DNA of 64,000 nucleotides, from the NCBI RefSeq assembly GCF_021134715.1, contig NC_060025.1, positions 2,232,001 to 2,296,000 of the forward strand. Direction: 5' to 3'. Shown in pieces: positions 46,626-53,700 of the stretch. Positions within the stretch are counted from its first letter, which is position 1. Each line of letters opens with the position of its first letter. The position numbers were made by a program, and so were the translations under genes. The notes beneath the pieces are model-generated. The model saw only the letters and a program-made list of their open reading frames with translations. It was not told the DNA's origin and did not search any database. This stretch comes from Daphnia pulex. Taxonomy: Eukaryota; Arthropoda; Branchiopoda; Diplostraca; Daphniidae.

Positions 46626-49598
46626 CAATATTTTGCAATAAATAACAAGGGATTCCTTAGGATGGGATGGGGCTGTAATAAGGATAGGTTGGGGGGGGGT
46701 TATAATCATAACGGGGGGATGGGAAGATAATAAATCATCATCATTATAGAATCATGATAAACTTTGATCCAAACCAACAAACAAACGACAGATAATGGCA
46801 GAATTATGTAATGGCAGAGATAGAGAGTTTAGAGAGAGAGAGATTAGATAGAGAGACCGAGAGAGAGAGAGAGAGAGAGAAATGGGAGGGGCTTGATGAG
46901 GGGGGTGGGGGCGGGGTATTGCACGTTAGGCGAAAAAGGTCATAGTATTGCTCATCGATACTGGTTTTTAAAAATTTAACTTTTTTTTTAATTTTTATTT
47001 AATTTTTTTTTTGGTTTCGATTTCATCTTTTTCCGACTACGAAAAAAAAAATTCAATTAAAAAAAAGATTTTTTTTTCTTTCTTCTCTCTCCCTTTTTTA
47101 ATAAGTTTTTTTTTGTCGTCTCTCAAAAATGTTTTTGAACACACACACATGGACATAACCTTGTTGAGGGGGGTTGGGGGGTGGGCGGGGATTTATTTCA
47201 TTTTGTAATTTTTTTTTAAACTTTTGCCAGACGAAATTTCGATTGAATTTTTTGAAAATTGAAAAAGGAGCTGAATTTGTTGTTTTTTTTAATCCTTGAA
47301 GGTGTGAAATTAAAATAAAAACAGATGGACACGCGAGTCGATCATCATTCATCATCATCGAATTAAAAAAAAATGTCTATTTATAATCTCAAGAATTAAT
47401 TCTTCTAATTTCTTTATAATGCGTGTGTGTGTGTGTGTGAAGAAGGGTTAGAGATAGATAGGAGAGATAGGAAAGTGAGAAGTGAGAAATGTTTCATTAT
47501 ATCATACATCATCGAATTTTTTCCCTTTTTTGTTTTTTAAATTTCTAATAGAGATTGAAAGAATTATATTATAAGAGATAGAGAGATGGAAATTTGTGAA
47601 GGTTTCTTTTTTTTGTCAAAAAACCTTTTTCTTCTTCGATTTAAATGAATAAATTTTCAATGAAAAAAAAATGTTTTTTCTTTTTCTTTTAGTGTGGGCG
47701 AAATTCTAATTAGCTTGGGGTAATAACAAGGTGCTGATTACACACACGATATAACAACAACAACAATCGGGGCGATGAATTTCTTTTATACAGATCAAAT
47801 TTTTGTAAAATAAATCAATCAAAATCAAAATAATAAATGTGTGTTGGGTTTGGGAGATCCTCTGTCGAGTTGATGGGATTTCAATCAAAAAATCGCCGGA
47901 TGAAGTTGGCGAGACACGACAGAAACCGAAAATTAAAAAAATGACATTTACCCATTTTTTTTGTAAATGTACTAAATTAAAATTGAAATGAATTCAAATA
48001 AAAAAAAATTAAAAGGGGGGGGGGGTCTCTCAATCGCGGAATTATTTCATTTTTTAAAGAAAACACACAGGACCGCTCCATCCACACATGTCTACACTGT
48101 ACACACACGTGTCCACTAAAAAATGTTTGGTTTTCTGAAAGAATTTTTTTAAAGGAATTAAAGAATGTTATAACAGCAGGGGGGAAGGGGGAGGGGGACT
48201 GGCGACGTAACGATTCAATCATTCGATTTTTTGAGGAGAGAGAGAGAGAGAGAGAAACTGGACCTTGAACACAAAAATGTCGTTGTTTGACATTTTTTTC
48301 CTTTTTTTTTGGAATCCAAATTTGTTTCATCGACTAGAAATTTGATTCGTCCTCAAGATTATTGACTCATTCATTCGAATTTGAATTCATTGAAATTTTT
48401 TTTGGGGTGAATTTTTACATTTCTGGTGGACAATAGAGGGCGCTATCCCTAAAAAAATTCTATCGATTTCTAAAAATTTCAAAAATCGTTTTTTTTTCCC
48501 GCGGAATTTGGGCGAAAAAAAAAATTATTCAAACACGTCGCTAATTAAGAAAAAAAAAACAATTTCCTAAATTTGCATGTCACACACGTATTCCTTGTCT
48601 TGTCGCTCTGGCATTCTTTTGTTTGTTTGTTTTTTACACACATTTTGAAAATGAATTATCAAAAAAATCGCACGAAGAATTATATCCCAGAAAAGAAAAT
48701 GTTCAACTACAAATGACAAATGAGCTCCCCCTCATATCCTTAAAATAATAATAAAAAAAAAAATCATTTGCCATATTTTTTTTTAAAGAAATAAAAAACA
48801 AAAATTGACCGAACCTAAAAAAAAAAATTAAAATAAAAAAATTTGAATTAAATCAAATTTTGTCGAACGAAATTGTTGTAAAAAGAGAGAAAAATAGCAT
48901 CAGGGCATTGGCGTCGAAAAGCATTGCCATCGCTCAGAAATATCCGCCGACGGGAATCACTAATTTATTTCAAGTTATATAATAAATAACTTTTTATTTT
49001 TTTACTTCTTTAAAGGGAAAGGATTTTTTTTTTAAATCTTAAAATTTGTTTTGTTGAAACGGCAGTGTGTGTCTATTGGGGGGGTGGGGCGCGGGGGAGA
49101 GATTGGGGGCAACACACACACCAAAAGTGTGAAGAAAATGAAGATGTTGGCGTGTCGAATGTGTGTGTGTGAGTGAGTGTTGTTGCGTGGCTCCTATTAC
49201 GAACGAAAATAATAAAAAGGATCAAACCCAAAAAAAGGACGAGGTGATTTATAGTGTGACTTAAAATAAAAATAATAATAAAATAAAATAATGATTTTTT
49301 TTAATGTCCTTCTAAGAAGATGAATTAGATATAATCGAATTATTTTTTTTGTTGGAAGAAGAAGATGGAAGAAAATGAAATGAAAAATTTGTTTTTTTCG
49401 TTGAAATCGCTCGGGAAGAAGAGGAGGGGAAAAAAATCGAGGCGATATTATGTTAATGAGTCGCGCCTACACACACAAGAAAAATTGACAATGGACACGC
49501 CTCCTCACACCCGGTGTGTGCATGGGAAGGGGGGGGGGCTGTTTTTTTAAAGAAACGGAAGTCAAAGTTGATAGTCCGACTGCTGAAAAAGGTTGGAA
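45820..49598. other. Low-complexity AT-rich region
   Basis: Dominated by A/T homopolymers and simple repeats, including (GA)n at 46593-46622 and 46859-46880, (GT)n near 46383-46398, (GT)n at 47422-47439 and a G run near 48016. No gene is supported. The part nearest 49598 may be the 3' UTR of the innexin. Confidence 0.5.
46593..46622. repeat. (GA)n microsatellite
   Basis: About 15 GA units. GAGA tracts can bind GAGA-type factors, but here the tract sits in generally simple DNA. Confidence 0.9.
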
Positions 49599-49707
49599 TT
49601 AATTTGTTATCATTTTTGGGATCGACACCATATTGATCGCAGAGCCTCCTGGCGGCCTCCGGCTGATCGCTCTTGATTCCGGATTCCGGAATTTAGGTAT
49701 TGAAATT

Positions 49708-50244
49708 TCAGTGGCGGTAGCCGTGCGACGACGACGACGGAGCGAATTTGGCTCGCCCGTGCTCACGGAATTTGGGCTGTCCGGATGAGGAGCCCGAGTG
49801 TCCGTGCTGCCTGTGGGTCTGCGTGTGAGCGGCTCCGGAAGCGCCTTCGTCGTACGAGTCGCGTCGATGGTGCGAGGCTTTGGGTCTGCGGAAGGATCCG
49901 GCGCTGACGGCGCCCAGATGATGTCGGATGATGATGCCGTTGGGCGTGCGGAATCCCATGATTCCGGCCGACGATGAGTGGTGGTGGTGGTGGTGATGGT
50001 GGTGGTCGGCGACGGCGATTCCGGCGGCTTCCAGGTCTCGTATTTCAGTGTCGTAGAGGAGTCGGACTTCGGCGGTGGCCCCGGCCCCCGGGCCCCCGGA
50101 TGAGGAAGAAGCGGATTGTGTGGATGGGTGGTGTGATGCGGCGGCGGCGGATGTCGATGGAGCGTTCGACCAACTGTCGAAGAGGATATGTCTGCTATTA
50201 ATAACATCGGAGGAGCGCTGGTTGTCTCCCGACGCCGCCCTGTG
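49708..50244 (-). other. In-frame open extension after the innexin UAG stop (candidate readthrough)
   Basis: Directly after the innexin TAG, 178 sense codons continue in the same frame to a TGA at 49710-49708. The would-be peptide has a nine-histidine run, Ser/Gly/Ala-rich parts and protein-like stretches (EVRLLYDTEIRDLEAAGIAV and MGFRTPNGIIIRHHLGAV). Codon third positions are mostly C or G, as in the innexin exon itself. It could be a UAG-readthrough tail for the intracellular end of the channel, or be joined by splicing across the stop; ATTAATAG near 50200 is a weak acceptor. Confidence 0.5.
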
Positions 50245-50759
50245 CTAAGCGTCCATAAAGTCTTTGCCGGTGTGGCCGAGCTTCTTGCCCAGCTCGTGCA
50301 TCACCTCCTTGAAGATGATGGAGTCGACGTTCTGGCCCAGCATGTAGAAGAGGAACCAGTCGCCCATCTTGGACTTGCGGACAATGGTGTTGATGACCTC
50401 GCGGTTGATGAGCCGGAAGCGGATGTAGAGCAGGTAGGCCCTCATGCGCGGGCTGAGGATGATGATGAGCCGGTAGAGGAGGACCAGGGCCGTCAGGAAG
50501 CCCAGGATCAGGAACCAGAACCAGAGGAAGATGTAGATCTTTTCGTTGACCACGTTGAGCGGGAGGATGCACAGGGCGTCGTGCTTCTCCACCTCGCCCG
50601 ACGTGCCGAACTTGTTGAAAGTGCACTTGGTCATCCGCGGGAAGATGTAGATCATCGGGTCGATGCGCTCCTCCTGGTCCCGCTCGGCGAACGCGATCAC
50701 GTCGAAGCCGAACGTCAGGAAGGCCCCGTCAAAGAACGTGTTCATCAGGAACATTTGAC
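50245..50759 (-). CDS. Innexin, shakB/inx-type, terminal exon (5' exons outside window)
   Basis: A single exon after the acceptor TTGATTGCAG, entering in phase 1 (a G from the previous exon gives GQMFLMN) and ending DFMDA then TAG at 50247-50245; about 171 codons. Innexins are the four-pass gap-junction channel proteins of invertebrates. Visible parts: the end of transmembrane 3 ([19 protein letters not shown]), and extracellular loop 2 with its two conserved cysteines in TKCTF and [10 protein letters not shown]. Next come the innexin signature [14 protein letters not shown], transmembrane 4 ([18 protein letters not shown]) and a cytoplasmic tail beginning [25 protein letters not shown] and the final DA resemble the shaking-B group more than ogre or inx3. 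Earlier exons with transmembranes 1-2 are not found up to 64000, so a long intron must follow. Confidence 0.92.
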
Positions 50760-53700
50760 CTGCAATCAATCAATTAAGACACACAAATTTATAATTTTTT
50801 TAAATTGACATTTTTATTCATTTTTAGCTAATCAAAATTGGGCTCAGCTCAGCTCCCGGCTTCTTTTTATATAATTAATTACAACACCGTTGCCAGGGGT
50901 TACACACACACACAAGGCCTTTCATGTGGCGCGCAACCCCCATCCATCCATTCAAACCCATTACTCATTTCGCATGTCGTCTGCTGGGCCGGCTCTCCAC
51001 ACAGTCGACATTTAGGCCCATCGAGAAAAAAACTGGGAGTCCGCTTTCCGGCCGTCAGGAGGGAATAAGGTTGCCAGGAGCGTTTCTCAACTGCAGACAC
51101 ACAATATCCCCGGCCCTCCTTCGCCATTTACTACACTCACTTTACGCTCGTCAGGATCTCGAGGATCAATCCATCGTGGGGCTGGAATTTTTTTCTTCTT
51201 CTTCTTCGAAAAAAAAAGTATATAGAAACTTTCAAATGATTTATAGAAGCCTCGACTAGGAGAGGGGGAGCTTTAGCTTTTATCGAACTCGCCCAGCGAT
51301 AGTCATTAAAGAATTATTATATGCCTCAAAAGATATTAAGACTTTTTTTTTTTAACTTTTTCTTTTTTTTCTTTCGACGATGATTAGGAGCCAAGGAGAA
51401 AGAAATAAGTAAAATAAAATAAAACTGCCAGGCTGAACCGACGATGTGTGCAGTTTCCCATTTTGGACGGGATCCAAAACACCATTTTTTTTTCTCCTGT
51501 ATTTTTCCCTGGGCAAGCCAATGTTTTTGTTTTTGTTTCTAGAGATCTATTCTGCTGTATCTTATCTCTCCCGGGGTTGCTCTGTGTGTGCTTCTTGGTG
51601 CGTTTGATGGGCCAGAAAAAAGAGAAAAAGAAAAAAGACGTTGATGGGAAGTTGGTGATGGATACAAGAGGAGGCCAACAGACTCTCACTTCATTTTCTC
51701 ATCTTTTCGGGTTGCCATTTTGGCCGCCGTTCGATTCCTCAACTTCTCGCCCCGGCTAAAACCCCCTTGGGCTCCTGACACCTCCATTATCCAAACCCGT
51801 CACCTCCCTGGCAGCCGACAACAATTGCACACATATATAAATAAATACGAAAAGCAAAAAGAAAAGAAGAAAAAGAAAAGACAATCTCGAGATTAGGGTT
51901 GGCGTGACGGGCGTCGTCGTCCAACCAATAGCTCCTCACTCGAGCGAACACGCTGGGCTCCTGGTAATATAACAGGAGCCATGCTGCTCTATCCAAAAGA
52001 TATAGGAGAAAAAAAAAAGAGACCAGCAGCAGCAGCAGCAGCAGCAGGGTTTGCGGAGGCCCAGCCCACCCCCAGCCCAGTTTTATGACATAAATGACTC
52101 GATATCGTTGGCGATGTGATATCTCTCTCCGCGTGCCTCATCAAAGGTAATACACATAGAGCCGAGGATGAGATGGCCAAGCCCGTCGCCGCAAGACACA
52201 CATTTCACGCCCGCGTCTCGGCCTCGCCGGATAGTCCCAGCTATTGATGATTCCGGCTATCCCCGCCCTCTCCTACCACCAGACTTTTTTCTTCTTCTTT
52301 TTACGACGGACCGTTTTCCTTCATCTTTTTATATTCGATATCAAAATGACGACCCACAGACGCCACCCCCTGATGTTTGATATCTTTCGGGCCGGCCGGC
52401 CGGCCGGGGGTATATCTATATACATATCCAGATCATCGCGCTGGATCTATTCCGGCAAACAGCTCAAAACTGGATCACATTGAGAGTGGAGGGGGGAGGT
52501 CAATTTTTTCGAAAGTTGGCGCCAATCTTCTTTAAGTTTGTGGCTCAATTGGCGCCTCTTTTTTTCAAATTCAATTTTATTTTGGGTTGTTGTTGTTGTT
52601 GTTGCTATTTTTGGGTTGTTGAATGGAACAATTGAATTTCGGAGGGTCTCGCAAAGTGTTTAACGCCATCGATTTCTATTTTTTCCCGTTCGTGTGTGTG
52701 TTTTTCTCTCTCACTCTTCTGTGTGTGTGTGTGTGTGGGTTGCATCAATAAATTTGCAGGAGAAGCTCCTCCCACTCCGCCGCTCGTCGTGATGGATGGG
52801 AAAAGAAAAGTCGGAGCGACACGTCAAAGCTTCTCCTCCTCCTCCGATATCAAATTGCTGTGCATATTATTACATCAATTGAGTTGTCATAGATGACGAG
52901 GAGAAGAAGTTGCTCTTCTTCTTCTTCTTCCATCCATTTTTTTATATTTTTTTTTGGCTGGGGGGTTGGGGGTGGGTGGGGAATTTGATTGATGGCAAAT
53001 TGAAAATTCCCCCAACCCCCTCGGCGAAATGATAATCACGTCATTGGCCTCATTATAAATCGAATTTCAATGAGTTTGGAAATTGACTCTCTCCTCCTGC
53101 TGCTGCGGTGCACGTTGGCCAAAAAGAAAAAAAAGGAATTAATCGAATGTTTTATTCCCCCTTCCTCCTTTTTATTTTCTTCTTCTTGTCTTTTGATTGG
53201 AGCACACGCAAAAGAGAGTCACGGGGCGACGGCGGGAAAAGGGGGGAGAGAACTAGGAGCACAGGAGCACAGGAGCTGCTGCTGCTGTGTTCACTTTAGA
53301 TTCTTTTCTCTGCGTTAACGGCTCGACGGTTTGAAAAGATCCTCTCAAGAGAAAGGAGAGCCACACACACCCACACGTCCAACTGCCAGCCCAGCACACA
53401 CAGCAACCCAACAGCCAAAGTGCTCCTGTATAGCTTTGGCTCCTTTTCTCACTCGATTCACGGGCGGGCTCCTACAGCTCCTTGCGCGTATAGACACTGC
53501 ACAAAAGAGCTTAGATATTCTCTCTCTCTCTCTTGAACAACAACAACCAAACAACTCCTTATAGACAGTTTCTCTCTCTCTCTCCTATAGGCTTTTCTTA
53601 AACATAATAGACTTATATATACAGATAGCCCCCCTGTATATACTCTCACTCTCTGTGTAGTGTGTTGTATATATACTTGTGTTTCCGTGCATAAACTAAT

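Follow-up and report, generated by a model that had tools for sequence, protein, structure and literature searches.

An in-frame extension past the TAG stop of a Daphnia pulex innexin gene, a candidate for stop-codon readthrough

Results

The innexin gene and its two stops

The window analysed here is the whole stretch C9:2232001-2296000 of Daphnia pulex, 64,000 nucleotides in length, and the genome searched comprises 133.19 Mb in 13 contigs. An innexin gene is located on the minus strand, with its 3' end inside the window and its first two exons beyond the window edge (Table 1). Hallmarks of innexins are a YYQW motif and two Cys per extracellular loop. Exon 1 starts with MLDIFRGLKNL and contains the YYQW motif and two Cys, and two Cys are also found in exon 3. 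Exon 2 ends with a GTAAGT donor; the two stops listed in its match are explained by the start of the match a few codons inside the intron. From the C9 positions at which exons 1 and 2 matched, the two introns of the gene are about 14 and 15 kb long. The reading phase at the start of exon 3 is 1, and the acceptor of this exon scores 4.0 with an approximate consensus table. The 174-residue frame of this exon (50248-50769) matches Pfam PF00876 (Innexin) over residues 2-163 (E 1.1e-59; 202.7 bits versus a curated cut-off of 25), and both upstream exons match this family too. The structure of innexin-6 (PDB 5h1q and others) also matches the exon 3 frame, over residues 43-113 (E 1.7e-8). This innexin-6, which we take to be the C. 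elegans protein, thus belongs to the same family by sequence; the match does not involve the extension described below. Counted by hand over the three exons, the canonical innexin ending at the TAG has about 365 residues.

Table 1. Features of the innexin gene and its 3' region. Positions are those of the window, except where contig C9 is named.
Feature	Position	Strand	Evidence or remark
Innexin exon 1	C9:2311925-2312239	minus	Innexin match in genome; outside window
Innexin exon 2	C9:2297556-2297801	minus	Innexin match in genome; outside window
Innexin exon 3, last coding exon before the stop	50248..50759	minus	acceptor gattgcag/GTCAAATG at 50759
First stop TAG, then C	50245..50247	minus	context GAC GCT TAG CAC AGG
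In-frame extension, 178 codons, rich in Ser, His, Ala, Gly	49711..50244	minus	open frame, codon score, periodicity
Nine-His tract	49978..50004	minus	read from sequence
Second stop TGA	49708..49710	minus	end of open frame
First candidate poly(A) signals past TAG	48964..49305	minus	ATTAAA at 49305, AATAAA at 48998 and 48969

An earlier note on this DNA had described an innexin that ends in TAG, a frame that then stays open for 178 codons to a TGA, and a nine-His tract in this extension; the positions confirm all three. The extension contains 31 Ser, 24 His and 24 Ala among its 178 residues, and includes the segments LLYDTEIRDLEAAG and IMGFRTPNG. Per 60 bases, the GC content is 0.67 just before the TGA, then 0.52, 0.37, 0.47, 0.50, 0.50 and 0.25. 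AATAAA and ATTAAA are poly(A) signal motifs. Neither was found between the TAG and the TGA; counted from the TAG, ATTAAA first appears after 942 bases and AATAAA after 1249. Further downstream in the same frame, past the TGA and one more TAA, there is a protein-like patch (IPESGIKSDQPEAARRLCDQYGVDPKND; 49595-49692, minus strand), which is surrounded by AT-richer 3' UTR and is without Pfam match. Over five training sets, the full codon scores of its 32 codons range from -19.0 to 6.7, with four of the five within 10 of zero. With these scores, and with another in-frame TAA in between, double readthrough into this patch is not supported.

Comparison with innexin paralogues

Eight last exons of innexin paralogues, called last by their frame stop without transcript check, were available for comparison. 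This count leaves out a degenerate copy near C6:6.360 Mb, as well as paralogues for which no last exon was available. The stops are TAA in six cases and TGA in two, never TAG, and none is followed by C. All eight are located 5-34 codons past the Innexin domain. The TAG of the gene studied here lies 11 codons beyond the end of the domain (residue 163 of 174), and so sits where the family stops, as had been claimed from its length. The next in-frame ORF past the stops of the paralogues has 8-54 codons, and the paralogues examined are without such a tail. Among the nine innexin last exons, the sole TAG-C stop coincides with the sole long extension.

Openness, third positions and periodicity

The earlier note had cautioned that openness alone is modest evidence. 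In fact, the extension frame was open in 1059 of 5000 dinucleotide shuffles and in 1349 of 5000 order-2 Markov samples. With so many shuffles equally open, openness is not significant and provides no evidence for coding. The third positions had been said to be GC-rich like those of the preceding exon. They are GC-rich (127 of 178 codons), but less so than in the exon (162 of 171; Fisher p 4e-9). The change point of GC3, 6 codons before the TAG (range -12 to -4), is close to where the domain ends, and a similar drop is seen in the tail of one paralogue, L021 (22 of 32 codons versus 0.83 in its domain). For these two reasons the GC3 break was considered undiagnostic as a sign for or against an old stop, and was set aside.

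The three-base periodicity of the extension, determined unsupervised, has a z of 7.33, a value reached by none of 2000 samples. With runs of at least three equal residues masked, z is 5.37 and one of 2000 samples is as high. Half-overlapping control windows, 48 in number and each as long as the extension, were taken from the intron between exons 2 and 3. Their mean z is 0.48 and their maximum 3.3, a single window reaching 3; these controls are less GC-rich than the extension (0.38-0.50 for the top eight versus about 0.64, from base counts). Among nine homeobox coding windows z ranged from 0.9 to 11.4 and was below 2.1 in two, and innexin exon 3 gave 43. The two halves of the extension have z values of 5.3 and 2.2. 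By periodicity, the second half taken by itself does not stand apart from the stretch past the TGA, which also has a z of 2.2. What is above chance in the extension, unlike its openness, is its frame-specific composition.

Codon models

A codon model was trained on 35 exons (7068 codons) from ion channels, innexin paralogues and three long ORFs of the window. By its full score the extension frame ranks first of six, narrowly (-14.9 versus -18.3), and is not first in the first third. None of the 32 held-out coding windows from the same set scores as low as -14.9, their minimum being -5.0. A homeobox training set was picked after this weak result, because the amino-acid make-up of channels was judged unsuitable for a disordered tail. 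It consists of six exons (1998 codons), taken as open frames from the first Met, with ends called without transcript check. With this model the extension frame scores +10.3 per 100 codons and the other five frames -19.4 or lower, to -52. The extension frame is the best of six in each of its six segments (about 30 codons each), also in the one that directly follows the TAG, and it is first in five of the six when both training sets are used. When homeobox windows of 178 codons were scored by leave-one-out, values were 0.0 to 18.9 for the true frame and -21.9 to -3.1 for the best wrong frame; the true frame won in 14 of 14 windows with the homeobox model and in 11 of 14 with both sets. The observed homeobox-trained score was reached by none of 5000 dinucleotide shuffles and none of 5000 order-2 Markov samples, nor was the codon score with residue runs masked by any of 5000 order-1 samples. 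Another minus-strand frame, open for 233 codons at 49602-50300 and spanning the TAG, does exist, as the earlier note had warned. It scores as non-coding over the extension (-32.7 versus +10.3).

When synonymous choice alone is scored, the extension frame obtains 2.3 (channel-trained) or -1.4 (homeobox-trained) and an antisense frame wins with 7.0-7.4. The synonymous score is a weaker guide: it ranked the true frame top in 28 of 32 windows of the channel set and in 11 of 14 of the homeobox set. The coding signal of the extension is its amino-acid make-up, not its synonymous codon choice. We consider it probable that the extension is coding.

Structure and relatives of the extension

Ordered-looking segments had been proposed for the extension. 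AlphaFold2, run on the single extension sequence, gave a low-confidence model (mean pLDDT 51.7) with at most one short helix (66-73) and one hairpin (95-99 and 105-109; mean of 78 for the best ten-residue block), the rest being unstructured, so that only these two elements can be retained. A search of the D. pulex genome with the extension returned its own locus and two weak low-complexity matches (E 0.04 and 0.19). The piece without the His tract found only itself in this genome and nothing among solved structures, both up to E 10. Pfam gave no match up to E 1, and NCBIfam a single chance-level match (E 0.096; 11.6 bits versus a cut-off of 275). Viral contigs scanned with the extension gave 241 pattern matches and prokaryote contigs scanned with the core exon gave 26, with no relatives in either case.

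Discussion

The best explanation for this locus is, with a probability of roughly 0.57, low-level readthrough of the UAG giving a mostly disordered, His/Ser/Ala-rich cytoplasmic tail. The TAG would be a leaky stop at which most ribosomes end and produce the ordinary innexin. A small fraction would insert an amino acid at the UAG and continue to the TGA, and the product would gain a mostly disordered cytoplasmic tail of 178 residues, rich in Ser, His, Ala and Gly. Innexin channels are oligomers, and incorporation of a small number of extended subunits would thus yield mixed channels differing in placement, partners or regulation. The earlier note had also read the locus as UAG readthrough. In favour of this reading are a coding-like ORF directly past the in-frame stop (by composition, synonymous bias being absent), the C at +4 (TAG CAC; found after none of the eight paralogue stops) and the absence of a good splice route among those scored, whereas the occurrence of readthrough, its frequency and all functional consequences are what we infer. 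We regard the gene as a good readthrough candidate, on firmer ground than the earlier reading for the coding nature of the extension and on weaker ground for its function. No RNA stem stands out past the stop: three stretches pair no better than shuffles (z -0.63 to -0.88), such a stem being found in some readthrough genes and not required.

That readthrough is abundant in arthropods, as the earlier note had stated, is also what Jungreis et al. 2016 (PMC5100048) report for Pancrustacea, including most insects tested and D. pulex by name. There, C after the stop is among the readthrough signals named. By the same account, readthrough genes are marked by longer introns, larger numbers of exons and longer coding regions. 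The innexin gene fits by intron length only; its three exons are few and its first ORF is short, which speaks against a typical readthrough gene. It shares with the candidates described there an in-frame coding-like second ORF right past the stop, the C, long introns, and a coding signal weaker than that of the first ORF. Those candidates rest on conservation among several species, whereas the innexin extension is known from one genome. The words 'innexin' and 'Inx' are absent from the main text of PMC5100048. Abundant readthrough in D. pulex is thus already known, as a genome-wide estimate; the innexin candidate offers a concrete named case with a long candidate tail in a model crustacean. 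By titles and abstract starts, no readthrough innexin or gap-junction gene was found in the open-licence literature. In the same literature, no study of Daphnia readthrough beyond PMC5100048 was found by title, and no Daphnia ribosome footprint data by title or abstract start among the matches listed.

Several other explanations were considered. The extension could be a GC-rich, non-coding 3' UTR, its open frame and period-3 pattern being accidents of low-complexity repeats. The frequency of chance openness (1059/5000), the absence of synonymous bias, the channel-trained score under 32 of 32 held-out coding windows and the second half with a periodicity equal to that of the stretch past the TGA (z 2.2) are all in line with this, and the intron controls were less GC-rich (0.38-0.50 for the top eight versus about 0.64). 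The masked data do not agree with it (periodicity z 5.37; codon score reached by 0/5000), nor do the 48 intron windows, all with z of 3.3 or less; GC also falls once the TGA is passed, although parts of the next 300 or so bases remain near 0.5. We see non-coding sequence as unlikely, while giving it more weight than the explanations that follow. The long tail could also be the ancestral C-terminus, with the TAG having arisen in this clone by recent nonsense mutation, or being a base error of the assembly. TAG is one base change away from several sense codons, and PMC5100048 excludes or subtracts both events as false sources. This is rather improbable, since the TAG sits at the family stop position: its distance of 11 codons from the domain falls within the 5-34 codons found for all eight paralogue last exons examined.

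A transcript that splices into the extension, from the innexin gene or from an unseen upstream exon, would make readthrough unneeded. AG sites with fair scores exist at 50239 and 50191 (1.7 each, phase 2, compared with 4.0 for the real exon 3 acceptor), an AT-rich patch lies near 50180-50208, and a fair donor, GAG/GTGATG, is present at 50304 (2.2). The phases, however, do not match: it is 2 for the better acceptors inside the extension, 0 for the one fair donor ahead of the TAG, and 1 at the start of exon 3. Among pairs that keep the frame, the best one (50304 to 49818) totals only 0.8 bits and would retain just the last 36 residues. These scores are based on an approximate consensus table instead of MaxEnt, and of the real splice sites they cover the exon 3 acceptor; by this rough measure there is no good splice bypass, and we hold this route to be a little less probable still than a recent stop. 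Editing by ADAR would convert the UAG to UIG, read as Trp, in some tissues. ADAR favours a U-A-G triplet, as present at the stop, and neural genes are generally common targets. Pairing of the stop region with flanking pre-mRNA is nevertheless ordinary, 24 of 34 control windows pairing at least as well, and editing appears very improbable.

Readthrough, the preferred reading, has related examples. In Drosophila, dfr/vvl undergoes UAG readthrough with a C-terminal extension, according to PMC13170385. In the reporter for dfr described there, UAG leaks less than UGA, which counts against the innexin candidate, and readthrough is strongly affected by a stem-loop past the dfr stop. The innexin gene resembles dfr/vvl in its UAG stop and candidate C-terminal extension, and differs from it in that no stem-loop stands out. 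AQP4ex is the readthrough isoform of mammalian aquaporin-4, found in arrays with the canonical forms and linked to polarised placement (PMC9138620, PMC7073200 and PMC10701521). The likeness is that of a membrane channel with a readthrough form, as proposed for the innexin; AQP4ex is, however, a vertebrate water channel with another tail and from another family. If readthrough of the innexin is true, some gap-junction channels would carry an extra His/Ser-rich tail, fitting a known arthropod habit. Metal or pH sensing via the His tract is conceivable. It is a doubtful idea, but the leaky UAG might set the share of innexin subunits with a His-rich cytoplasmic tail, and translation termination might thereby serve the cell to tune how electrical synapses respond to pH or metal, or where they are placed.

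Two other innexin loci were noticed in this genome. At C6:6360462-6362073, seven matches, most of them interrupted by in-frame stops, correspond to an innexin copy; it is either a decayed copy or a place where the search read through exon edges. At C9:4714396-4715720, two matches belong to an innexin that is divergent, has a long insertion ahead of YYQW and carries a 34-residue tail past the domain.
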